From Marivita hallyeonensis (GTDB taxonomy: Bacteria; Pseudomonadota; Alphaproteobacteria; Rhodobacterales; Rhodobacteraceae): DNA of 64,000 nucleotides. The DNA is taken from positions 124,001 through 188,000 of the forward strand of contig NZ_FQXC01000002.1 in the NCBI RefSeq assembly GCF_900129875.1, given 5' to 3'. Shown piece after piece: positions 44,591 through 57,794 of this stretch; position 1 is the stretch's first letter; the number at the start of each line of letters is the position of its first letter. A program made the translations under genes and the position numbers. The notes beneath the pieces were generated by a model, which was given only the letters and a program-made list of their open reading frames with translations, had not been told where the DNA came from and did no database searches.

Positions 44591-45250
44591 ATGCCGGCAC
44601 TTCTGTTCGACCTCGACGGGACCATGCTCAATTCGGACGCGATCCACGAGCAGGTGTACAGGGAACTTTGGGCGTCGCGCGGTCTAGAGATGACGGATGG
44701 GTTCTACATGGCGCATGTGCACGGGCGGCTGAATGTCGACGTGTTTGCCGAATTCCTGCCGGACGAACCGGACCCGCAGGGCCTGAGCGAATGGAAAGAG
44801 GCAGAGTTCCGCGCCCGCCTGCCGCGACCCTACCCGCCGATGCCGGGGGTGCTGGATGTGCTTGAAACGGCGCGCGCTCAAGGATGGGCCGTATCTGTGG
44901 TGACAAACGCGATGCGGCTGAATGCCGACGCGATGCTCGCGGCCATCGGGGCACAAGACTTCGTCGATGACGTGATCATCGGCGAGGAGTGTACCCATGC
45001 CAAACCGCATCCCGAGCCCTATCTGACGGCGATGTCTCGCCTCGAGGTCGCGCACCACGATTGCATCGCCTTCGAGGACAGCCCCACAGGCGTGCGTGCC
45101 GCCACTGCATCCGGTGCGTTTACCATCGGTGTGCGCTCGGCCTTGTCAGACGCAGACCTGCGGGACAACGGCGCCCACGCCACCATCCAGGATTTCACCG
45201 ACACCGCGTTGCCAGCCCTGCTGGACCGCCTCAAAGGAGCCGCCGCATGA
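44591..45250 (+). CDS. HAD-superfamily phosphatase
   Basis: 219-residue haloacid dehalogenase-type hydrolase of the phosphoglycolate phosphatase-like subgroup. Motif I is FDLDGTML with Asp7 and Asp9; motif II is VVTNA near 100; motif IV is FEDSPTGVRAA near 163. The substrate is unknown. It lies seven bases after the MetF-like gene and overlaps the following methyltransferase by four bases, so it is within the cluster, which suggests a repair or recycling task in one-carbon metabolism. Confidence 0.85.
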   Translation: MPALLFDLDGTMLNSDAIHEQVYRELWASRGLEMTDGFYMAHVHGRLNVDVFAEFLPDEPDPQGLSEWKEAEFRARLPRPYPPMPGVLDVLETARAQGWAVSVVTNAMRLNADAMLAAIGAQDFVDDVIIGEECTHAKPHPEPYLTAMSRLEVAHHDCIAFEDSPTGVRAATASGAFTIGVRSALSDADLRDNGAHATIQDFTDTALPALLDRLKGAAA

Positions 45251-46329
45251 CACGGACCGTTATCGAGTCAAAAACCAAAACCGCCTTGATCGGGTTCGAC
45301 CAGCCGTTCTGCGTCATCGGGGAGCGGATCAACCCCACCGGTCGCAAGGTCCTCAACGAAGAGTTGGAACGCGGCGATTTCAGCCGGGTTGAGGCGGATG
45401 CACTGGCACAGGTGGCCGCTGGTGCCAATGTGCTCGATATCAACTCGGGCGCGGTCTTCTCGAACAAGATGGCCGAAGACCCGCGCTACGCCGACAACAA
45501 CTTCGTCGAGCCGACCTTGATGAAGGAACTGGTCGAACATGTGCAGGCCGTCACCGACTGCCCGCTCTGCATCGACTCGTCTGTGCCCGGGGCCTTGGAA
45601 AACGGGCTTGCCGCAGCCGAAGGCCGCCCGCTTCTGAACTCGGTCACGGGTGAAGAAGAGCGGCTCGAACTGGTGTTGCCGCTGGTGAAGAAATACAACG
45701 TGCCGGTCGTCGCGATCTCGAATGACGATACCGGCATCAGTGAAGATCCGGACGTGCGGTTTGCCGTTGCGAAGAAGATCGTGGAGCGTGCTGCGGATTT
45801 TGGCATTCCCGCGCATGATATCGTTGTCGACCCGCTCGTCATGCCAATCGGAGCGATGGGCACTGCCGGGTTGCAGGTTTTCACCCTTGTCCGCCGTCTG
45901 CGCGAAGAGCTGGGCGTCAACACCACCTGTGGCGCGTCGAATATCAGCTTCGGGCTTCCGAACCGACACGGGATCAACAACGCCTTCCTGCCGATGGCAA
46001 TCACGGCGGGCATGACCAGCGCAATCATGAACCCGGTGGCCTTGCCCGTGGGGCCGACGAAACTCGCCGAGAAAAGAGCCGAAGTCGAGGCTGCAGGCAT
46101 CGTTCTTCCGCCCGAAATGGATGACGAGACGTTTTGCCAGCTGTTTGGCCTGGGCTCGACCAAGCCGAAGCCGGGCAAAGAGATGGAGGCGATCCGCGCG
46201 GCCAACTTCCTGACCAACAATGACGAAGGCGGCGCGGCCTGGATCGAATTCAACAAACAGCCCCCGAAAGCCGGCCACGAAGGGCGCGGTCGCGCAGGTC
46301 GGTCCGGAGGCCGACGCCGCCGCGCGTGA
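45247..46329 (+). CDS. Methyltetrahydrofolate:corrinoid methyltransferase (split MetH pterin-binding subunit)
   Basis: 360 residues with the pterin-binding TIM-barrel fold of the DHPS/MeTr superfamily. GERINPTGRKVL near 20-31, VLDINSG near 65, LCIDSS near 103, PLLNSVTG near 125, PLVMPIGAMG near 205 and GASNISFGLPNR near 235-246 match the methyltetrahydrofolate site of MetH and of corrinoid-iron-sulfur methyltransferases. The C-terminal 30 residues are Arg/Gly-rich. Homocysteine and B12 domains are absent. AAAGGAG precedes the ATG. In roseobacters this subunit acts with separate homocysteine and cobalamin proteins encoded elsewhere. Confidence 0.88.
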   Translation: MTRTVIESKTKTALIGFDQPFCVIGERINPTGRKVLNEELERGDFSRVEADALAQVAAGANVLDINSGAVFSNKMAEDPRYADNNFVEPTLMKELVEHVQAVTDCPLCIDSSVPGALENGLAAAEGRPLLNSVTGEEERLELVLPLVKKYNVPVVAISNDDTGISEDPDVRFAVAKKIVERAADFGIPAHDIVVDPLVMPIGAMGTAGLQVFTLVRRLREELGVNTTCGASNISFGLPNRHGINNAFLPMAITAGMTSAIMNPVALPVGPTKLAEKRAEVEAAGIVLPPEMDDETFCQLFGLGSTKPKPGKEMEAIRAANFLTNNDEGGAAWIEFNKQPPKAGHEGRGRAGRSGGRRRRA

Positions 46330-46481: not shown

Positions 46482-47318
46482 TCAGACACGTACGCCGCGA
46501 CGCCCTGCCAGATCGGTGAAATACTGCCACGCCACGCGCCCCGAGCGCGATCCGCGCGTGGCTTGCCATTCGATCGCTTCCGCACGCAGCGTCGCATCGT
46601 CGATCTCGACGCCATACGCGTCGCAATACCCCCGGATCATGGCGAGGTAATCGTCCTGATTGCAGGGATGGAATCCAAGCCAGAGACCAAACCGGTCGGA
46701 CAGCGATACCTTCTCCTCGACCGCTTCGGACGGATTGATCGCCGAGGACCGCTCATTCTCGATCATATCGCGTGGCATCAGGTGGCGCCGGTTCGATGTG
46801 GCATAGAACACCACATTCTCCGGCCGCCCCTCAACGCCACCGTCCAACACCGCTTTCAGAGATTTGTAATGCTGGTCGTCGTGGCTGAAGCTCAAATCAT
46901 CGCAGAACAGGATGAACCGGTGCGACGACACTCGCAAAAGGTTGAGCAGTCGCGCCACGCTCGGCAGATCCTCGCGTTGCAATTCCACAAGTTTTGCCGA
47001 CTGACCTTCTGCCAGGATCGCCGCATGCACCGCTTTGACAAGGCTCGACTTGCCCATCCCGCGCGCGCCCCACAACAAAGCGTTGTTCGCGGGCAGGCCG
47101 CTGGCGAATTGCCTTGTGTTCGCAAGCAGCGTGTCCCGGCTGCGATCCACACCGACCAACAGGTCAACCGGCACCCGGCTCACCTCGGGCACGGGCTGCA
47201 GATGGTCCGGGCCCACATGCCAGACAAACGCGTCAGCGGCATCGAAGTCAGGCGCAGGCTGCGGCGCGGGGGCAAGCCGTTCCAGCGCAGCGGCGATCCG
47301 CTCCATCGGGTCGATCAC
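46482..47318 (-). CDS. DUF815 family AAA-type ATPase
   Basis: 278-residue ATP-binding protein. Walker A is GARGMGKSS near 84-92, Walker B LFCDDLSF near 136-143, and sensor region VVFYATSNRRHLMPRDM near 168-184, characteristic of DUF815. The C-terminal AAA lid (HPCNQDDYLAMIRGY) follows. The function is not established. The GTG start overlaps the tatC stop, which may indicate co-translation with the Tat genes; an ATG four codons downstream is possible. Confidence 0.85.
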   Translation of the reverse strand: MIDPMERIAAALERLAPAPQPAPDFDAADAFVWHVGPDHLQPVPEVSRVPVDLLVGVDRSRDTLLANTRQFASGLPANNALLWGARGMGKSSLVKAVHAAILAEGQSAKLVELQREDLPSVARLLNLLRVSSHRFILFCDDLSFSHDDQHYKSLKAVLDGGVEGRPENVVFYATSNRRHLMPRDMIENERSSAINPSEAVEEKVSLSDRFGLWLGFHPCNQDDYLAMIRGYCDAYGVEIDDATLRAEAIEWQATRGSRSGRVAWQYFTDLAGRRGVRV

Positions 47319-48211
47319 TGTTTCGCGCCCTCGTCTTCGTCGAACTCTTTCATCAGAGGATCATCTTCGAGGTCATCATCTTCCATCCAGAGGCCTTGCG
47401 CGCGCAGCTCTTTCTCGCGCTTCCGCTCCACCCGGCGGACAAGGAAAATGGACACTTCGTAAAGACCGTAGACCACGACGAAGAGGATGATCTGTGTGAT
47501 GACATCCGGCGGCGTGACCAGAGCGGCCAGAACGAGGATCGCGACCACGGCGTATTTGCGCACCGATCCAAGGCCGTCGGAACTCACCAACCCCGCCTTG
47601 CCCATCAGGGTCAGAAGAACCGGCAACTGAAAGCAAAGACCAAAGGCCACGATGAATTTTACAGTGAGGTTCAGATATTCCTGGGCCGAGCCCTGAAAGA
47701 CGACCGACAGGCCTTGGGCGACCTCTTCGTCGACCACGGCCTCGCCTTCCGCGCCGAATTGCTGGAAGCCGAGGAAGAAATCGTAGGCCAGCGGTGTGAC
47801 CACGTAGAACGCAAAGGACGCGCCCAAGAGGAACATGAACGGCGATGCGACCAGGAAGGGCAGGAACGCGCCCTTCTCGGACTTGTAAAGTCCCGGTGCC
47901 ACAAAGCGCCACATCTGCAGGCTGATATAGGGAAAGGCCAGCATGAAGCCGCCCAAGAGAGAGATCTTGATGGCGACAAAAAAGCCTTCCTGCGGGCTGA
48001 TGAAAATCAGGTCGCAATCCTGACCGCGCGTTGCCAGCACCTGGCACAAAGGGGCCGTCAGGAAGTTGAAGATTGGCGTCGCCACCGTGAAACAGATGAT
48101 CATCCCGATGATGAAGGCGACCACCGAATGGATCAGGCGATTGCGCAGCTCGGCCAGATGCTCGATCAGCGGGGCGGAGCTGTCCTCGATCTCGTCCGGC
48201 GTACTGTTCAT
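47315..48211 (-). CDS. tatC: Twin-arginine translocase subunit TatC
   Basis: Integral membrane receptor of the Tat export pathway, 298 residues with six helices. Motifs: [15 protein letters not shown] at the start (twin-arginine signal-contacting Glu) and [25 protein letters not shown] near 75-100. The C-terminal tail is acidic ([17 protein letters not shown]). Start overlaps the tatB stop by four bases. The full set tatA-tatB-tatC is present in this order. Confidence 0.96.
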
Positions 48212-48663
48212 GACGCGTCTTTCGTGTCGGTCGCGTCCGGCTTGGCGGCGGCTTCCATCTTGGCGACTTTGTCCGCCGCTTCCTTGGCTTCCCGCGCCTT
48301 GCGTTCCGCCGCAGCCTTGGCCGCAGACAGCTCGATCTTTTTCTTCGCTTCCTGCCGTTCGGCGGACAGCTTACCTGTATGACTGTCGGGATTGATATCC
48401 GTCATCGCCTTGGCGGCATCTTTCACGCCATCCATTGCGGAACTGACCGGATTGGCTGCGGATTTGAAGGTCTTGGCCACATCCGCCACACCCGCGTCAT
48501 CCGCCGCTTCGTTCATCGCACGGCTGAACTCACGCGCCATCCCGCGCGCTTTGCCCATGAACCGCCCGATGCTGCGAAACAGCACGGGAAGATCCTTTGG
48601 CCCCACGACAATCAGCGCAACAACGCCGATGACCAGAAGCTCCGTCCAGCCAAGATCGAACAT
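48208..48663 (-). CDS. tatB: Twin-arginine translocase subunit TatB
   Basis: 151 residues: one N-terminal membrane helix with the [26 protein letters not shown] pattern of TatB, an amphipathic helix (about 25-45) and a long charged, Lys/Ala/Glu-rich coiled tail (about 100-145). It forms the receptor with TatC for twin-arginine precursors. Six bases separate it from the tatA stop. Confidence 0.95.
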
Positions 48664-48669
48664 CTAGGG

Positions 48670-48888
48670 TTACACCTTGTCCTTTTCGGACTCAGGCGTC
48701 ACGTCCTTGGCCTCGTCACCCGAATTGGCCTGTTCGATTTCTTCGGTGCCGTCTTTCACGCCCTTTTTGAAGGCCGTGATGCCTTTGCCCACCTCGCCCA
48801 TCAGTGACGAGATTTTGCCGCGACCAAACAGCACGAGGACCACGACCGCGATCAGCAGAAGGCCCGGAAGGCCGATATTGTTGAGCAT
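48670..48888 (-). CDS. tatA: Twin-arginine translocase subunit TatA
   Basis: 72 residues; membrane helix (about 5-22) followed by [23 protein letters not shown], the TatA amphipathic helix, and an acidic tail. It oligomerises to form the protein-conducting pore. The ATG follows AAGGAGAGAG. It is the first gene of tatABC; the region upstream is shared with the YafY-type regulator on the other strand. Confidence 0.95.
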
Positions 48889-49010
48889 CGCTCTCTCCTT
48901 GAATCGTCCCTGCCGCGATCACGCGGCTGAATTCGATCCGGTTCTAGTGGGTTTGCCCCCTGTGGAAAAGCGCCAAAATCCGTGGCCCCGGGGCAAATCG
49001 CAGCGATTTT

Positions 49011-49044
49011 TGTCAAGAGCTTGTCAGTTGACAGGTTTTTGTCA
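49011..49044 (+). promoter_or_regulatory. Cluster of TGTCA boxes upstream of the YafY-type regulator
   Basis: TGTCA occurs at 49011, 49022 and 49040; the second copy forms a palindrome with TGACA (49022-49033, TGTCA-GT-TGACA). The first two are 11 bases apart. The cluster lies 30-63 bases ahead of the regulator ATG, where an operator for autoregulation would be expected. A weak Pho box is the alternative reading because of the 11-base spacing. Confidence 0.5.
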
Positions 49045-49073
49045 GTATTGATGCGCAAGATGAGGAGAATCGC

Positions 49074-49739
49074 ATGAAACGCGCCGACCGGCTTTACGCT
49101 TTGATGCAGCGGCTCAAGGACGGACATCTGCACACGGCAGAGGCCATGGCGCAGGACCTCAATGTCTCGGTGCGCACCATCTACCGGGACATGGAAACGC
49201 TCGCTGCCTCGGGCGTTCCGGTCGAAGGTGCGCGCGGGTCCGGCTACACAGCCCGGGCGATGATCACCTTGCCACCTTTGAACCTGACCGAGGTCGAGCT
49301 CGAGGCCCTGCATATCGGTTTGGCGGCCGTTGGCTCGGGCACCACCGATGATCTGGCCGAGGCCGCCCGCAGCCTTGCCGACAAGGTCGACGCCGTCCTG
49401 CCCGAAGACGTCGGCGCGCCCTCTGCACGGTTCGGCTTTGCCACCTACCCCTTTGCCGAGGCCGCACAGGGGTTTCAGCACATGCCCGCCTTTCGCAAAG
49501 CCATCCGAGCGCGCCAGAAACTGCGTCTGCGCATACAGGGCGAAGAGGCGCCGCAGATCGTCCGTCCCTTGCACCTCGACTACTGGGGTCGCATCTGGAC
49601 CTGCGTTGTCTGGAGCGAAACAAACGAGGCATTCGAAACCTTCCGCATGGACCGCGTGATCGAGCTGTCACCGCTGCCAGGCCTGTTCGTGGATGAGGCA
49701 GGCAAGCGGCTGAAGGATTTTCATGCCTTGCAGTCCTGA
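49074..49739 (+). CDS. YafY-family HTH/WYL-type transcriptional regulator
   Basis: 221 residues: a DeoR/HTH_11 winged helix (about 1-60; AEAMAQDLNVSVRTIYRDMETL) followed by a WYL-like ligand domain (about 130-215; PLHLDYWGRIWTCVVWSE). Members respond to small molecules or nucleic acids. GAGGAGAA precedes the ATG. It lies 45 bases ahead of the reductive dehalogenase gene on the same strand and probably controls it, and is divergent from tatABC. Confidence 0.85.
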   Translation: MKRADRLYALMQRLKDGHLHTAEAMAQDLNVSVRTIYRDMETLAASGVPVEGARGSGYTARAMITLPPLNLTEVELEALHIGLAAVGSGTTDDLAEAARSLADKVDAVLPEDVGAPSARFGFATYPFAEAAQGFQHMPAFRKAIRARQKLRLRIQGEEAPQIVRPLHLDYWGRIWTCVVWSETNEAFETFRMDRVIELSPLPGLFVDEAGKRLKDFHALQS

Positions 49740-49784
49740 GGCAGCGATGATGCACTTGCGTCCGGACAGGTGAGGAGACACCCT

Positions 49785-52700
49785 TTGGGTATTCGGCTCT
49801 TTTCGGACAAGGCACGCCCGGTGCATTTGGGCCCGTTTCCCTTGGAAACAGCAGTGCGCGGACCGATGCCAGACCTGTCTTCCGTCCCACGCGACGGCGC
49901 GTTGAGCTTCCGGCGCGCCAACGATCCGGCATCCATCATCAACGCCATGACCGACTACCAGGCGATGATGGACGCCATTCGGGACGGGTTTGTGAACCGG
50001 TCGCCGTCAATCGTGCCCACAGATTTAAATGAACGCTCCAATCACCTGAAAGCATTCGGATATTTCTCGGACGCGTCAATGGTCGGCATCGGGCCAGTTC
50101 CCGCAGAAGCGCGGCTTTCCACCCCAACGCGCAATCCCGATATCGACCGTTTGGCAGAGGCTCTGCGGACGCAGCAAACGAAAACCCTCGCCTCTGGCAT
50201 CGACCTCATCATGGCGGACCTCAAGGAGTCGATGGACGCGCCGCAGACGACCATCGCCGATCACCAGACGGCGCTGGTGTTTCTGTACGAAATCCCGCGG
50301 GACCCAAAGCCCAATGAGCCCGGCACAGGCTGGATTGAAGGCGCACAGGCCCATCGCGCCTGCCTGCGCGCAACCGAAACGGCCGTGGTTGTCGCCAACT
50401 ACCTGCGCCTTCTTGGTTGGGACGCGAAGGCGCATTCCGCGACCAGCACGGATGTCGATCTGAACACTTGTACGGTTGCGGCCGGGTTGGCGTACGTTTC
50501 GGACGGCCGGTTGGTCAATCCGTGGCTCGGTGACCGCTTTGGCGTCGCGGTCGTGTCCACGACCTTCGAGATGCAACACGACCAGCCCCTGTCACCTGAC
50601 CAACCACACGCGGTCACACATGGGCTGTCGTGGACCCTCGGCACCGAATCCGCGCGCTCAAGTCTGAACACGAACCCGTTTGACCGACGCCGATACATCG
50701 ACGGCCCCCATCCGTTCGAGACGCTTAAACGCGTTGACATCCCGACGACCTATATCGACGAAGCAAACGTCCCGCGTGTTCCGAAGCGCACCGATATGTT
50801 CGCGCGTGCGCTGTTCGGTGACATGGGAAAGAAGCTGCAGGACGGCGCCAAAGGCGGGCATTACGTCCGGAAATCGGCACCGTCGTCGGCGCAAAGACGG
50901 ATGCTCGGCGCGTTTGTGCTCCTGCAGGACGGTGATCCTGCCCCCGAACGCCACGTACCCGACCCGCAAGGCCACGCCGATGCGATCAAGGCCACTGCCT
51001 ATTGGCTTGGCGTGGACGCCATCGGGATCAGCCGCTGCCCGGACTGGGCGTGGTACAGCCACGACGCGCGCGGCGACCCCATCGACCCGCCGCACGATCA
51101 GGCGATCAGCGTCATCATCGACCAAGGCTACGAGACGATGGAAGGCGCGTCCGGCGACGATTGGATCAGCGTCGCCCAATCGATGCGCGCCTATCTTCGG
51201 TTTTCGCTTCTGGGGGGCGTGATCGCACGGCAGATCCGCAACCTCGGCTACAGCGCGAAGGCGCATAGCGTGATGGATGGAGAGGTGCTGCAACCGCCGC
51301 TGCTGCTGCTGTCGGGACTCGGCGAAGTCAGCCGCATCGGCGAAGTGATCCTCAACCCCTTCCTTGGCCCGCGTCTGAAATCCGGCGTCATCACCACCGA
51401 TATGCCGCTTGCCCATGACAAGCCCATCGACTTCGGTCTGCAGAAATTCTGCGAAAGCTGCAACAAATGCGCCCGTGAGTGCCCGTCTGGCGCAATAACC
51501 GCCGGGCCGAAGCTGATGTTCAACGGCTACGAGATCTGGAAATCGGACAGCCAGAAATGCGCCACCTATCGGATCACCACCGAAGGCGGCGCAATGTGTG
51601 GGCGGTGCATGAAGACCTGCCCGTGGAACCTCGAAGGTTTGTTCGCCGAAAAGCCGTTCCGCTGGGCCGCGATGAACGTGCCTCAGGCGGCCCCGGTTTT
51701 GGCAAAACTCGACGACGCGCTCGGACGTGGCGGATTGAACCCGGTCAAGAAATGGTGGTGGGACCTCGAACTGCAAGAGGACGGTGGGTATCGCCCGACG
51801 GACAAGCCGGTGAACGCCCGCGATCTGCAAAAGGGCCTTGATCTAAAGTACGAGGACCAGACGCTTGCCGTCTATCCGGCACCACTGGCACCACATCCCT
51901 ACCCTTACCCCGATCCGATGGACCGCGAGGCCGGGATCAAGGCCTATGGCGAGATGGTCGACGCCGACACGCACAGAGCGCGACTGGCGAAGGGCGACAC
52001 CACGCATCTGCATCGGGTGAAGGACGTAACCGAAAGCCCGGTCATCCCGGTGATCGTGAGCAAGGTAGAACGGATGTCGCCCTCGGTCACGAAATACGAA
52101 TTCCAAAGCATCGACGGCTCCGCCTTGCCTGCGTGGGACGCCGGTGCGCATCTCGATCTGGTCGTGGCGCCGGAATACCTGCGGCAGTATTCCATGTCCG
52201 GCGATCCGGCTGATCGCAGTACGTACCAGATCGGAGTGCTGCGCGAAGATGCGGGGCGTGGTGGATCGGCCCTTCTGCACCGTGTCTTCACCGAGGGACG
52301 CAAGGTGTTCATCTCGCACCCGATCAACCATTTTCCGCTGGTCGAGGATGCCAAATTCACCTGGCTTCTGGGGGGCGGCATCGGCGTCACACCGATGATC
52401 GCCATGGCGCACCAGCTGCACGCACTCGGCAGAGATTTCGCGCTGCACTACTCCATCCCGTCGCGCGCGGATGCCGGATATCTTGAGGACCTGCAATCCG
52501 TGCCCTGGGCCTCGCAGGTCCATCTACATGTTAGCGACGAAGGCAGCCGCATTGATCTGGCCACAACGCTGCCCAAGTATACCGATGGGCATCATGTCTA
52601 CACCTGCGGCCCCGACCACTACATGCAAGCCGTCATGGAAGCCGCTGAAGCCAAAGAATTTCCCGATGACCACCGGCACCTGGAATACTTCGCTGTGCCG

Positions 52701-52985
52701 GAGCAGCCGGCGTACGAAAACCACCCCTTTACGCTGCGCCTGAAAGATGGGCGAAGTTTCATCGTACCCGCCGACAAGACAGCGACGGACGTGCTGGCGG
52801 AGAACGGGATTGCGGTGGATGTGAAGTGTTCAGATGGGATTTGCGGGGTGTGCAAGGCCCGGGTGCTGAGCGGTGATGTCGAACACCGGGACTTCGTTCT
52901 GTCGAAGGCGCAGCGTGCGGATCAGATCATCCTCTGCCAGTCGCGGGCGGCAAGGGCGGACGGTGAGATCACGATCGACCTGTAA
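49785..52985 (+). CDS. Self-sufficient reductive dehalogenase fused to FAD/NAD/2Fe-2S reductase
   Basis: 1066-residue cytoplasmic enzyme. The N-terminal two thirds resemble reductive dehalogenases, with two 4Fe-4S motifs: Cys556, 559, 562, 566 (CESCNKCARECP) and Cys592, 605, 608, 612 (CGRCMKTCP). The last third is a phthalate dioxygenase reductase-type module: FAD site RQYSMS (800-805), NAD site GGGIGVTPM (863-871), CGPDHYM (941) and a plant-type 2Fe-2S centre CSDGICGVC at 1015-1023. The layout matches the BhbA type, a cobamide enzyme that removes halogens from halophenols without a partner protein. No Tat signal or membrane anchor. Start is a TTG after GAGGAGA; a GTG at 49770 is the alternative. 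Confidence 0.88.
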   Translation: MGIRLFSDKARPVHLGPFPLETAVRGPMPDLSSVPRDGALSFRRANDPASIINAMTDYQAMMDAIRDGFVNRSPSIVPTDLNERSNHLKAFGYFSDASMVGIGPVPAEARLSTPTRNPDIDRLAEALRTQQTKTLASGIDLIMADLKESMDAPQTTIADHQTALVFLYEIPRDPKPNEPGTGWIEGAQAHRACLRATETAVVVANYLRLLGWDAKAHSATSTDVDLNTCTVAAGLAYVSDGRLVNPWLGDRFGVAVVSTTFEMQHDQPLSPDQPHAVTHGLSWTLGTESARSSLNTNPFDRRRYIDGPHPFETLKRVDIPTTYIDEANVPRVPKRTDMFARALFGDMGKKLQDGAKGGHYVRKSAPSSAQRRMLGAFVLLQDGDPAPERHVPDPQGHADAIKATAYWLGVDAIGISRCPDWAWYSHDARGDPIDPPHDQAISVIIDQGYETMEGASGDDWISVAQSMRAYLRFSLLGGVIARQIRNLGYSAKAHSVMDGEVLQPPLLLLSGLGEVSRIGEVILNPFLGPRLKSGVITTDMPLAHDKPIDFGLQKFCESCNKCARECPSGAITAGPKLMFNGYEIWKSDSQKCATYRITTEGGAMCGRCMKTCPWNLEGLFAEKPFRWAAMNVPQAAPVLAKLDDALGRGGLNPVKKWWWDLELQEDGGYRPTDKPVNARDLQKGLDLKYEDQTLAVYPAPLAPHPYPYPDPMDREAGIKAYGEMVDADTHRARLAKGDTTHLHRVKDVTESPVIPVIVSKVERMSPSVTKYEFQSIDGSALPAWDAGAHLDLVVAPEYLRQYSMSGDPADRSTYQIGVLREDAGRGGSALLHRVFTEGRKVFISHPINHFPLVEDAKFTWLLGGGIGVTPMIAMAHQLHALGRDFALHYSIPSRADAGYLEDLQSVPWASQVHLHVSDEGSRIDLATTLPKYTDGHHVYTCGPDHYMQAVMEAAEAKEFPDDHRHLEYFAVPEQPAYENHPFTLRLKDGRSFIVPADKTATDVLAENGIAVDVKCSDGICGVCKARVLSGDVEHRDFVLSKAQRADQIILCQSRAARADGEITIDL

Positions 52986-53013
52986 TATGCTGATATTTCG
53001 GACGAACTAAGTC

Positions 53014-53048
53014 GCGTGGCCCCGGCACGCGGATGACCGGAGCCACGC
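53014..53048. terminator. Hairpin between dehalogenase and EF-hand gene
   Basis: Stem GCGTGGC/GCCACGC extended by CCGG/CCGG past one mismatch, with an 11-base loop. It lies between the 3' ends of two convergent genes, 28 bases after the dehalogenase stop. No T-run is present, so it is a candidate bidirectional terminator. Confidence 0.5.
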
Positions 53049-53055
53049 AGGGAGG

Positions 53056-53307
53056 TTAGCCGTCCGATGCAGGCATCAGGCCCTCGGTCTGTGCCACCGC
53101 CAACTCGTCCTGATTGAGAAGGCCATCACCGTCTGCATCCACCGCAATGAAGGTATCGGTGGTGACTTCGGGCAGGATGGCCTGAACCTCTTCCAGCGAC
53201 AGCATTCCGTCGCCATTGCCATCGGCCGCCACATAGTCGGCCGCGAGGGCTGCTCCCGGCAAAGCGATCAGGCCAAGTGCGATCAGTTTTGCGATTGTGC
53301 GTTTCAT
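53056..53307 (-). CDS. Small exported EF-hand protein
   Basis: 83-residue predicted periplasmic or secreted protein with a signal peptide (about 1-23, ending LAA-DYV) and two EF-hand loops: DGNGDGMLSLEE and DADGDGLLNQDE. Both have the full calcium-ligand pattern D-x-D/N-x-D-G-x-[ILMV]-x-x-x-E. The ATG giving MKRTIAKL follows GGAGAAA. The next gene upstream, in the opposite direction, is an ECF sigma factor. Function is probably calcium binding. Confidence 0.85.
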   Translation of the reverse strand: MKRTIAKLIALGLIALPGAALAADYVAADGNGDGMLSLEEVQAILPEVTTDTFIAVDADGDGLLNQDELAVAQTEGLMPASDG

Positions 53308-53530
53308 GTGTTTCTCCATGTCAAACTTCATGTGAAGCGCCGCGATGTTGCGACCTTCACGATGTATGAGGGCGAAACCGGCCCTCGCATCCCGTCACCT
53401 CCTGCGTGCGCGCAGACCTGCCAGTTTTGCTCGTGGCCATGCGCAGCCCATCGCTGAAAAAGCGCGGGAGATCGCCGTCGGCGGAAAGCCCCGGGCTGGC
53501 CGGGGATTTTCCCGCTGTCATACCGGATGC

Positions 53531-53989
53531 ATGGATACGGATCACCTGCCGCGCCTGCGCGCACGCGCCCGCCGCCTGACCCGCTCTCACGCGGATGCGG
53601 AAGACCTGTGCCACGACGCGTGCCTCGCCCTGTTGGAGCGGGAAGCCGACGGCGCGCGGATCGACCGGCCTTTGCCCTACATGATGACTGCCCTGCGTCA
53701 TGCGGCTTTGGCCAGATCCAAGTCGATCGCACGGCATGACACGCTTGAGGACGAGGATCTGCCGTCGTCCGAGGACGCCACTCTTGCCTGTTTCTGCGCC
53801 GAGGTGCTGGTCCATCTCGACCACCTGCCCCAAACCGACCGCGCCCTGCTGCGGCGCGTGGCCTACGAGGGGATCACGCCAAGCGAGCTGGCCGAAGAGC
53901 TCGACATTCCTGTCGGCACCGTCATGTCCCGCCTTGCCCGCGCCCGCGCGCGTTTGCGGGAGGCTATCGGGGTGAGTTCGGTCTTCTGA
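53531..53989 (+). CDS. ECF-type RNA polymerase sigma factor
   Basis: 152 residues with sigma region 2 (DAEDLCHDACLALLE near 25-39) and region 4 (LPQTDRALLRRVAYEG, LDIPVGTVMSRLARARARLR near 125-148). The ATG giving MDTDHLPRL is chosen since region 2 starts soon after; the frame is open for 62 codons upstream but those residues do not look conserved. No anti-sigma gene lies downstream. It is divergent from the EF-hand gene and convergent with nrdJ. Confidence 0.82.
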   Translation: MDTDHLPRLRARARRLTRSHADAEDLCHDACLALLEREADGARIDRPLPYMMTALRHAALARSKSIARHDTLEDEDLPSSEDATLACFCAEVLVHLDHLPQTDRALLRRVAYEGITPSELAEELDIPVGTVMSRLARARARLREAIGVSSVF

Positions 53990-54131: not shown

Positions 54132-57100
54132 TTAGCTACACCCGCTCGTTGCTCCGCAGGTGTTGCACTTCATGCAGGTGCCGTTGCGCACCAGCGTGTA
54201 ATTGCCGCAATCGCCGCAGGCCTCGCCTTCGTAGCCCTGCATCTTGGCCCGAGTGACAGCAGTCATCGCCGTGGTCGATGTCGTGGTCTCCAGCGCGACG
54301 GCTGTGACACCCGCCGTTTCCGGCACCAGCGTGTTGAGCGCCGTCACGGGATCGCCACCACCGAAGGCGACCGCGGCCGCCTGACCGCCCTGGAGCACGA
54401 TCAGCTCTTGCGGCAACCGCTTCCGAAGGTACCCGGTCGACGAGATTTGCTTAAGCACTTCCAAAGACTTGGACGCCGCACTTTCACTGATCTCCTTTAC
54501 GTTCGACACGCCCTCTTCCTCGCCGCGACCGATATCGTCGAAAGTCGCGCCTTCCGGTTTCACATGCGCCAGATCGGTGCGGTCGAGGTAGCTGACCGCC
54601 AGTTCGCGGAAGATGTAGTCGAGGATCGAGGTCGCGTTCTTGATACTGTCATTGCCCTGCACCATGCCCGCCGGTTCGAACTTGGTGAAGGTGAAGGCAT
54701 CGACGAATTCCTCAAGCGGAACACCGTATTGCAGGCCGACGCTCACAGCGATGGCAAAGTTGTTCATCATCGCCCGGAAGCCCGCACCTTCCTTGTGCAT
54801 GTCGATAAAGATCTCGCCCAGGGACCCATCTTCGTATTCACCCGTGCGCAGGTAAACCTTGTGCCCACCAACGATGGCTTTTTGCGTATAACCCTTGCGC
54901 CGTTCCGGCATCTTCTCACGGTGCGACTTGGCGATTTCCTTGATGACCACCTTTTCGACGATCTTCTCGGCCAGCACTTGCGCCTTTTCCGGGATGGACC
55001 CGCTTTCCAGCACCTCTTGTGCTTCTTCGTCGTCCTCGACCAAGGCAGCCGCGAGAGGCTGGGACAGCTTGGAGCCGTCGCGGTAAAGCGCGTTGGCCTT
55101 GGTGCCCAACGACCAGCTTAGCTCATAGGCTTTCTGGCAATCCTCGATGGTCGCATCGTTGGGCATATTGATCGTCTTGGAGATCGCACCCGAGATGAAG
55201 CTCTGCGCCGCCGCCATCATTGTGATGTGGCTGTCCACGGACAGAAAGCGCTTGCCCTTCTTGCCGCAGGGGTTGGCGCAGTCGAAGACCGACAGATGCT
55301 CGTCCTTCAGATGCGGCGCGCCTTCCAGCGTCATCGTCCCGCACACGTGGTCGTTCGCAGCGTCGATGTCGGCCTTCGAGAACCCGAGATGCCGCAGCAA
55401 ATCGAAGGTCGGATCGTTCAGCTTATCCGCAGGAATGCCCAACACCTCGCGGCAGAACTCTTCGCCCAGCGTCCACTGGTTGAACACGAAGCGAATGTCG
55501 AAGGCGGCAGCAAGGGCCGCGTCCACCTTTTCCAACTGCGCCGGGCCAAAGCCGTGGCCGATCAGGGAGGTGTGGTTGATGCCCGGCGCGTTGCCGATGG
55601 TGCCATGACCGACCGCGTAGGACACGATCTCCTCGATCTGCGCAGATCCGTAACCCAGCTTTTCCAAAGCCGCCGGAACGGATTGGTTGATGATCTTGAA
55701 GTAGCCGCCGCCTGCGAGCTTCTTGAACTTCACCAGCGCAAAGTCCGGCTCGATCCCGGTTGTGTCGCAATCCATGACCAGACCGATGGTGCCCGTCGGC
55801 GCGATCACAGTCGCCTGCGCGTTGCGGTAGCCGTGCTTTTCACCCAACCGCAGCGCCTCGTCCCAGGACGACATCGCCAGATCGACAAGACGGCTGTCCG
55901 GGCAGTTGGCATGATCCAACGCCACCGGCTTGACCGACAGCCCCTCATAGCCGTCCGTCGCGCCATAAGCGGCGTTGCGGTGGTTGCGGATGACGCGCAA
56001 CATGTGATCGGCGTTCTTCTTGTAGCCCGGGAACGGCCCCAACTCGCCCGCGATCTCGGCCGAGGTGGCATAAGACACGCCCGTCATAATCGCCGTCAGA
56101 GCACCGCAGAGCGCGCGACCCTCGTCACTGTCATAGCTGTAGCCGAGGTTCATCAAGAGCCCGCCAATATTGGCGTAGCCCAGACCCAGCGTGCGGAAGT
56201 CATAGGAGCGCTGCGCGATTTCCTTGGACGGGAACTGCGCCATCAAGACGCTGATCTCGAGCGTCAAGGTCCAGAGGCGGGTGGCATGCATATAGTCATC
56301 TGCCTGAAACTCACCGTCCTTGAGGAAGGTCAGCAGGTTCATCGACGCGAGGTTGCACGCTGTGTCGTCAAGGAACATGTATTCAGAACAAGGGTTTGAA
56401 CCACGAATCTCACCGTCTGCCGGGCAGGTGTGCCATTCGTTGACGGTGTCGTGGAACTGGATGCCCGGATCGGCACAGGCCCATGCTGCGTGACCCACAT
56501 CTTCCCACAGGTCGCGTGCCTTGATCGTTTTGGCGACGCTGCCATCGGTGCGACGGATCAGTTCCCAATCAGCGTCGTTCTTGACCGCATCCAGAAACGC
56601 ATTGGTGACGCGGATCGAGTTGTTGGAATTCTGCCCCGACACACTGGCATAGGCTTCCGAGTCCCAATCGGTGTCGTAGGTCGGAAACTCGATCGAAGCA
56701 TAGCCCTGCCGCGCGTAATCGAGCACGCGCTTGATGTAGGTCTCGGGGATCATCACGCCTTTTGCGGCGCGAATTGCGTCTTTCAAGGCATTGTTTTTCT
56801 TGGGATCGTAGGCGTCTTCTTCGGTGCCGTCCCAGGTGCGGATCGCTTCGAAAATGCCGTTCAGCATCTTCTCGTGCATCTTCGACCCCGCGACGATGCT
56901 GGCAACCTTCTGCTCTTCCTTGACCTTCCAGTTGATGAATTGCTCGATATCCGGGTGGTCGGCATCACAGATGACCATCTTGGCCGCCCGGCGTGTGGTG
57001 CCGCCCGACTTGATCGCGCCCGCCGCGCGGTCGCCGATCTTGAGGAAGCCCATCAGGCCCGACGACTTGCCACCGCCGGACAGCGGTTCGCCCTCGCCGC

Positions 57101-57794
57101 GCAGGTGGCTGAAATTGGTGCCGGTACCGGACCCATACTTGAAGAGACGCGCTTCACGCACCCAAAGGTCCATGATGCCGCCATCGTTCACCAGATCGTC
57201 CGAGCAGGACTGGATGAAACACGCATGCGGCTGCGGATGTTCGTAGGCGCTGTCCGACTTGGTCAGCTTGCCCGTCTTGTAGTCGACATAGTGGTGGCCC
57301 TGGCTTGGGCCGTCGATGCCGTAAGCCCAGTGCAGACCGGTGTTGAACCACTGCGGCGAATTCGGCGCGGCGCGCTGGGTTGCCAGCATGTGGCGCATCT
57401 CATCATAGTAGGCCTGCGCGTCTTCTTCGGTGCTGAAGTAGCCACCTTTCCAGCCCCAGTACGCCCACGCGCCTGCCAAGCGGTCGAAGACCTGTTTGGA
57501 GGAAATTTCGCCAGTGCGCTCGGTGCCTTCGTCTTCGGCGGTCGAGCGCCACAGGAAGGACGGCACGTCCTTTTCCTTGACCTTCTTCAGCGCAACGGGG
57601 ACGCCCGCCTTTCGGAAATACTTCTGTGCGATGACATCGCTTGCCACCTGGCTCCAGCTTGCCGGAACCTCCACGTCGTCCAATTTGAAGACGACGGTTC
57701 CATCAGGATTCCGAATTTCCGACGTGGTCGAGACAAACTCGATCCCCGCATACGCGTCCTGCCCTGCTGTCGTAAATTTTCTTTCGATTTTCAT
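54132..57794 (-). CDS. nrdJ: Adenosylcobalamin-dependent ribonucleoside-diphosphate reductase
   Basis: Class II ribonucleotide reductase of 1220 residues that makes deoxyribonucleotides using coenzyme B12, without oxygen requirement. Visible features: [21 protein letters not shown] (active-site Cys and Asn/Glu region), [13 protein letters not shown], and [23 protein letters not shown], typical of the long NrdJ form. The C-terminus has a zinc-ribbon-like [18 protein letters not shown] pair and a final CGATSGC. Upstream on the minus strand lie a NrdR-like box and DnaA boxes. Monocistronic with a strong terminator. Confidence 0.96.

Follow-up and report, generated by a model that had tools for sequence, protein, structure and literature searches.

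A predicted self-sufficient reductive dehalogenase encoded behind a tat-linked WYL regulator in Marivita hallyeonensis

We analysed a 64,000-nucleotide stretch of the Marivita hallyeonensis genome (contig NZ_FQXC01000002.1, positions 124,001 to 188,000; the window), focusing on the gene rdhA (49785..52985, + strand), which encodes a protein of 1066 amino acids (aa), and on the gene in front of it (49074..49739, + strand), which encodes a 221-aa helix-turn-helix (HTH) regulator of the WYL type. We found that the rdhA product is very probably a cytoplasmic, cobamide-dependent, catabolic reductive dehalogenase (RdhA) that carries an NAD(P)H reductase of its own as a fused part, and that its gene sits behind an older WYL regulator with which it is probably co-transcribed. 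The "self-sufficient" class that includes BhbA and JtRdhA has already been characterised, and this protein is a further member, which adds one more genome to those with this oxygen-tolerant debrominase class; about two in five of the sampled genomes of the family carry relatives. An earlier note on this DNA had taken the WYL gene as the dedicated regulator of the dehalogenase. We found that the WYL gene and the TGTCA boxes in front of it belong to the tat locus, a correction that matters to anyone who reads an inducer from a neighbouring regulator.

The fused dehalogenase and its predicted reaction

The mechanical open reading frame (ORF) of rdhA runs from a GTG (49770-52985, + strand, 1071 aa). 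TTG 49785 is the better start because the position aligned to it is ATG in 13 of 14 congener loci and GTG in the remaining one; AGGAG, a purine-rich ribosome site, precedes this TTG, and the alignment with NpRdhA of Nitratireductor pacificus (PDB 4ras, 6zxu) begins at the TTG-encoded residue, which pairs with NpRdhA residue 1. Residue numbers below refer to the 1066-aa protein unless 1071-aa numbering is stated.

The N-terminal two thirds of the protein match NpRdhA (4ras), the best solved relative, with an E-value of 1.1e-153, and the C-terminal 307 residues (763-1069 in 1071-aa numbering) match the phthalate dioxygenase reductase 2pia with an E-value of 2.8e-54; the reductase halves of self-sufficient P450s also match the C-terminal part. 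The NCBIfam model TIGR02486 scores 210.1 bits (cut-off 160.35), which places the protein in the family of the corrinoid-binding RdhA core. The alignment covers both halves of NpRdhA, including the N-terminal vestigial duplicate domain. Two [4Fe-4S] motifs (51450..51620, + strand; C556-C612) keep their cysteines C556, C559, C562, C566, C605, C608 and C612, and the phthalate-dioxygenase-reductase-like tail (52056..52982, + strand; residues 763-1071 in 1071-aa numbering) has flavin (RQYS at residue 800; GRGGS), NAD(P)H and [2Fe-2S] domains, the last of which keeps C1015, C1020, C1023 and C1051. Thus, the fusion read in the earlier note holds, as both ORFs are present and the iron-sulfur cysteines and the tail lie where it had put them. 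In the Pfam scan of the tail, Fer2 passes its gathering score, PF00175 (the NAD-binding model) falls short of its own and no flavin-binding model is listed, so the flavin and NAD(P)H assignment rests on the 2pia-type matches. The tail had also been described as binding FAD; the reductase part of that description stands, and FMN, as in JtRdhA, is the more likely flavin.

In the active site, we found that F291, S422, M423, Y426, K488 and R552 of NpRdhA align with F339, S466, M467, Y470, K532 and R596 here. None of the six pocket residues varies in an alignment of 37 rows, or in another of 8 rows to which BhbA and four more plasmid-borne fusions belong. The Tyr and Lys/Arg residues that the earlier note had singled out for comparison (Y470, K532 and R596) are conserved relative to both NpRdhA and BhbA, and the absence of the corrinoid-pocket residues, which it had named as what would overturn its reading, was not seen. 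The AlphaFold model has a mean pLDDT of 70 and a pTM of 0.60, with residues 551-620, which hold the [4Fe-4S] motifs, below 50. When this moderate-quality model was compared with the PDB by Foldseek, 14 NpRdhA chains ranked first, over about 750 columns, followed by self-sufficient P450s and 2pia.

Comparison with known relatives places the protein among the fusions. BhbA (Comamonas sp. 7D-2, plasmid pBHB, NC_021077; WP_015585978, the accession named BhbA in PMC10463259) has the same full-length architecture and the same pocket residues and is 51% identical over 99% of the length, in agreement with the earlier call of a self-sufficient, cobamide-dependent enzyme of BhbA type. The BhbA gene is on a conjugative plasmid among genes for a protocatechuate 4,5-dioxygenase, a porin and an aldehyde dehydrogenase, whereas rdhA here follows a WYL gene on a contig of 720 kb or longer. 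JtRdhA (Jhaorihella thermophila, WP_104007082), as described in PMC10463259, is likewise a marine RdhA-PDOR fusion that lacks a Tat signal, carries an insert relative to NpRdhA and keeps the Y/K/R set; JtRdhA is characterised biochemically, while the present protein is known here from sequence, and the two were likened by description, not through the JtRdhA sequence. That paper already names the class 'full-length/self-sufficient' and counts a Ruegeria pomeroyi protein among its members. NpRdhA shares the active-site set of the RdhA half but has no reductase tail, and it is 42 residues shorter in the segment that follows its residue 101. The corresponding insert (50103..50258, + strand; residues 112-163 in 1071-aa numbering) places 52 residues opposite 10 of NpRdhA, with only a 1-residue gap against BhbA; in our reading, from position and description, it equates with the insert of RdhA-PDOR fusions such as JtRdhA. 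A different RdhA of the Roseobacter group, Ros_A3X954 of Roseobacter sp. MED193, debrominates 2,6-dibromophenol and has its Fe-S motifs at 283-345, according to PMC13101508. The MED193 genome also encodes a fused RdhA that is 73% identical to the one in the window.

Respiratory reductive dehalogenases carry a Tat signal, have an RdhB membrane anchor and lack a fused reductase. We saw no twin-arginine signal at the RdhA N-terminus when it was read from the sequence without a signal-peptide predictor, and no RdhB-like ORF beside rdhA in the ORF list, for which no RdhB model was run; both observations agree with the cytoplasmic placement proposed before. The presence of tatABC next door might suggest an organohalide-respiring enzyme exported through the adjacent Tat system. 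With an NAD(P)H reductase fused to the protein, and with tatABC adjoining the WYL gene in the absence of rdhA at all 20 family loci described below, that reading is almost certainly wrong. The earlier view of tatABC as coincidental is right for the enzyme and wrong for the regulator, whose usual neighbours are the tat genes.

According to PMC10463259, JtRdhA, which has the same architecture, debrominates phenols with NADPH via FMN, [2Fe-2S] and [4Fe-4S]/corrinoid, is tightly coupled even in air, and is only inhibited by chlorinated analogues. By analogy, this protein should debrominate ortho-bromophenols. After JtRdhA and NpRdhA, NADPH would pass hydride to FMN, and single electrons would then run through the [2Fe-2S] cluster and the two [4Fe-4S] clusters to a base-off corrinoid. 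The halogen ortho to the phenol hydroxyl would be removed, with a proton supplied by the Tyr470-Lys532/Arg596 set. The likeliest substrates would be bromo- (or iodo-) phenols and hydroxybenzoates that occur in nature, and ordinary pathways of aromatic catabolism could take up the dehalogenated product. Elsewhere, the genome has a gene for a 4-hydroxybenzoate 3-monooxygenase (pobA) that scores above cut-off. Among relatives, 3 of 80 loci have a pobA cluster directly adjoining rdhA (one member confirmed by annotation), and pobA or protocatechuate dioxygenase genes lie near rdhA in Nitratireductor OM-1 and on Comamonas pBHB.

To describe how widespread rdhA is, we searched the genome itself, the genus, the family and plasmids. 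The genome has one rdhA copy; the second row in the search matches weakly and covers just the reductase part. The gene is carried by 15 of the 17 genomes of the genus, by 152 of the 394 family genomes sampled and by 8 of 72,556 plasmid records (E <= 1e-100 for family and plasmids). Scanning named genomes yielded 551 coding stretches; we retained 80 of these, among them stretches from Marivita, Phaeobacter, Ruegeria and Shimia. The family frequency would be consistent with routine use of natural bromophenols as substrates. A quick tree was built from 94 rows after removal of thirteen duplicates of rdhA; in it, a single clade with support 100 holds the 14 rows of the genus, which is in keeping with a single acquisition in the genus. 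The named Marivita loci L003-L010 encode RdhA proteins identical to those of congeners in this set. In one congener (G005), rdhA is split across two contigs (L096 and L097, covering query residues 5-652 and 606-1071), probably by an assembly break.

The WYL gene and its box array with and without rdhA

The WYL protein has WYL and HTH_11 matches above gathering score, and its gene commonly adjoins tatA in genomes of the family. The interval between these two genes holds an array of the form TGTCA-N6-TGTCA-N2-TG(A/T)CA-N6-TGTCA with a following GTAT (49011..49048, + strand); here the TGTCA boxes are 63, 52 and 34 nucleotides (nt) upstream of the WYL start and a TGACA is at 45. From its sequence and place, we presume that the array is an autoregulatory operator and promoter. 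The WYL stop is 45 nt from the rdhA TTG, as in the earlier note, and the boxes that it placed ahead of the WYL gene are present. The tatA gene (48670..48888, – strand; frame read from the sequence, with the TatA motif in family loci) is divergent from the WYL gene and is followed by tatB (48208..48663, – strand; named by its place and by relatives in the congeners G007 and G010) and tatC (47315..48211, – strand; TIGR00945, 211.7 bits, cut-off 132.7).

A dedicated regulator would travel with rdhA and be absent where rdhA is absent, and we found neither. In the genus, the WYL gene adjoins rdhA in all 15 rdhA-bearing genomes with a gap of 44-59 nt. Outside it, none of the 72 remaining named rdhA loci showed the WYL gene in its flanks, which extended to 6 kb at most and in a few loci were much shorter. 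WYL relatives are present in 213 of 394 family genomes (E <= 1e-40), and the linkage comparison drew on 148 of the 152 rdhA genomes and 148 of the 213 WYL genomes. Among the matches listed, 86 genomes have both genes, which are close only in the congener G002; in 20 they are on the same contig at least 134 kb apart, and in 65 they are on different contigs.

We then compared 20 family WYL loci, picked by us from the listed rows across 74-53% identity, whose genomes have rdhA elsewhere (12) or no rdhA match (8). In all 20, the genes for tatB, tatC and a DUF815 ATPase are upstream and divergent, and a TatA motif is directly upstream of the WYL gene; TatA was recognised by motif in the true frame, as tatA tblastn matches mark homologous DNA only. 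No rdhA match was found within 4-5 kb of the WYL gene in any of the 20. The four-box array precedes the WYL start in 16 loci, where it beats all 200 shuffles of each locus (the shuffles keep base composition only), and the test failed in four (L139, L145, L146 and L148). A divergent tatA-WYL pair with a TGTCA array at spacing 11-7-11 (window 48889-49073; L129-L148) thus recurs across the family, and the WYL protein may also act on tatABC. Within the genus the array is nearly invariant (16 sequences). The boxes had been taken to suggest induction by a halogenated aromatic; because boxes and WYL gene occur without rdhA, the boxes are no sign of such an inducer.

In the congener G007, tatABC, the WYL gene and nrdJ are in the same order and there is no rdhA. 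The G007 WYL gene is intact, with a median pN/pS of 0.17 against the other congeners and 0.12 among those others. We dropped the idea that its TGTCAGTTGTCA is a decayed operator, as the same form is found in 7 of the 20 other family loci and is a normal variant. In the congener G010, tatABC adjoins the EF-hand and sigma factor genes described below and there is neither a WYL gene nor rdhA, through either loss or early branching. The simplest history would be an old tatA-WYL pair behind which rdhA was placed in the genus, with loss of rdhA in G007. Linkage, congeners and family synteny taken together led us to reject the WYL protein as a dedicated rdhA regulator; it is part of a tatABC-linked unit that exists across the family without rdhA.

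WYL domains are marked by a signature triad. In the WYL domain here (49482-49667), the place of the triad reads WTC, as it does in 15 congener sequences compared, and by this sequence the ligand pocket may differ from that of canonical WYL domains. The protein shares the HTH_11 and WYL domains of WYL/YafY-type regulators but differs from them in being short (221 aa) and in this triad.

In a genome-wide operator search, we found 3 TGTCANNTGACA sites, each read on both strands. The three-box form has its only exact match at this site, and allowing one mismatch adds one other location and a reverse reading that overlaps this site. No regulon was inferred from this search of the genome. Among the matches listed for WYL, tatA, YafY and Rhodobacter topics, no title concerned a WYL orthologue at this locus, and among those listed for reductive dehalogenases with WYL, Roseobacter/MarR or Marivita, none concerned this locus.

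Regulation of rdhA and alternative readings

Because only 45 nt separate the WYL gene from rdhA, transcription from the WYL promoter probably continues into rdhA. The two genes would then be co-transcribed from a TGTCA-box promoter whose signal predates rdhA. Elsewhere, we found a divergent regulator of LuxR type beside rdhA in 8 loci and of LysR type in 5 (neighbouring genes were called with a crude score of GC position, and each neighbour cluster was typed from a single annotated member), and MarR-type genes beside rdhA on two plasmids. Regulation of the enzyme looks locally improvised. We tentatively raise the possibility, which we hold to be somewhat less than even, that rdhA in this one genus has been captured by the autoregulated WYL unit linked to tat and now forms its second gene, so that debromination answers to the old signal of the unit and not to the halogenated substrate. 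That signal is perhaps export or envelope stress, or DNA damage, which is the signal for some WYL regulators. In other lineages, on this view, the enzyme is under regulators of LuxR, LysR or MarR type.

An alternative, closer to the earlier view but confined to this genus, is that the WYL protein was recruited as a genuine regulator of rdhA and responds to a halogenated phenol. In favour of such recruitment, the two genes stay side by side at a short distance in every rdhA-bearing genus genome, and the array is nearly invariant there. However, identical boxes precede WYL orthologues with no rdhA nearby in the 16 family loci above, and G007 keeps an intact WYL gene without rdhA, although that loss may be recent. 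To our knowledge, WYL domains are not known as haloaromatic sensors. We consider recruitment unlikely. A separate alternative concerns the enzyme, whose natural job could be something other than bromophenol catabolism, such as detoxifying iodinated or brominated tyrosine-like compounds, or dechlorination. The genes beside rdhA vary widely between genera, so no single pathway is fixed to it; in contrast, all six pocket residues named in NpRdhA are kept, and pobA or lig genes are close to rdhA in some relatives. Another natural job for the fusion therefore appears doubtful.

Several points weigh against a catabolic debrominase that is read from an older WYL unit. Given the moderate quality of the AlphaFold model, the geometry of the active site is judged from sequence. 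Chlorinated analogues were not turned over by JtRdhA (PMC10463259), and the substrate range here may or may not extend beyond brominated compounds. Own synthesis of the cobamide is likely, but a cobN-like 1203-aa frame in the genome gives two strong partial matches that are below the family cut-off. In the 65 genomes with rdhA and WYL genes on different contigs, closeness is not excluded where assemblies are broken, and these genomes are weaker evidence. Since a promoter scan of 48880-53350 found no consensus sigma-70 site anywhere, including the stretches ahead of rdhA and of the WYL gene, it has no bearing on co-transcription. Finally, the WYL-rdhA adjacency has been kept through the genus, and the regulator may have become useful to rdhA.

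Other neighbours of the locus

Two genes for B12-related enzymes flank the locus, NrdJ, a B12-dependent ribonucleotide reductase (54132-57794), and a methyltetrahydrofolate:corrinoid methyltransferase-type gene (44989-46329). We considered this neighbourhood as a functional link and rejected it, as G007 keeps both genes without rdhA and there was no match in the 20 family loci; the B12 enzyme genes around rdhA are probably clustered by chance. No riboswitch was above gathering score in the window, where only two transfer RNAs were found. Behind rdhA, a small EF-hand protein gene (53055-53310, named by eye) is divergent from an ECF-type sigma factor gene (53345-53989), and G007 has no EF-hand or sigma match at this place.

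On the other side of the locus, two TatC types share one syntenic place within the genus (window 47315-48211, L003-L010, L112 and L113). They are a median of 64% identical between types and 94% within types (11 genomes; 68% threshold, our choice), whereas in the neighbouring DUF815 protein these genomes are 92% identical to one another. The two types reflect either in-place replacement or deep allele sorting.

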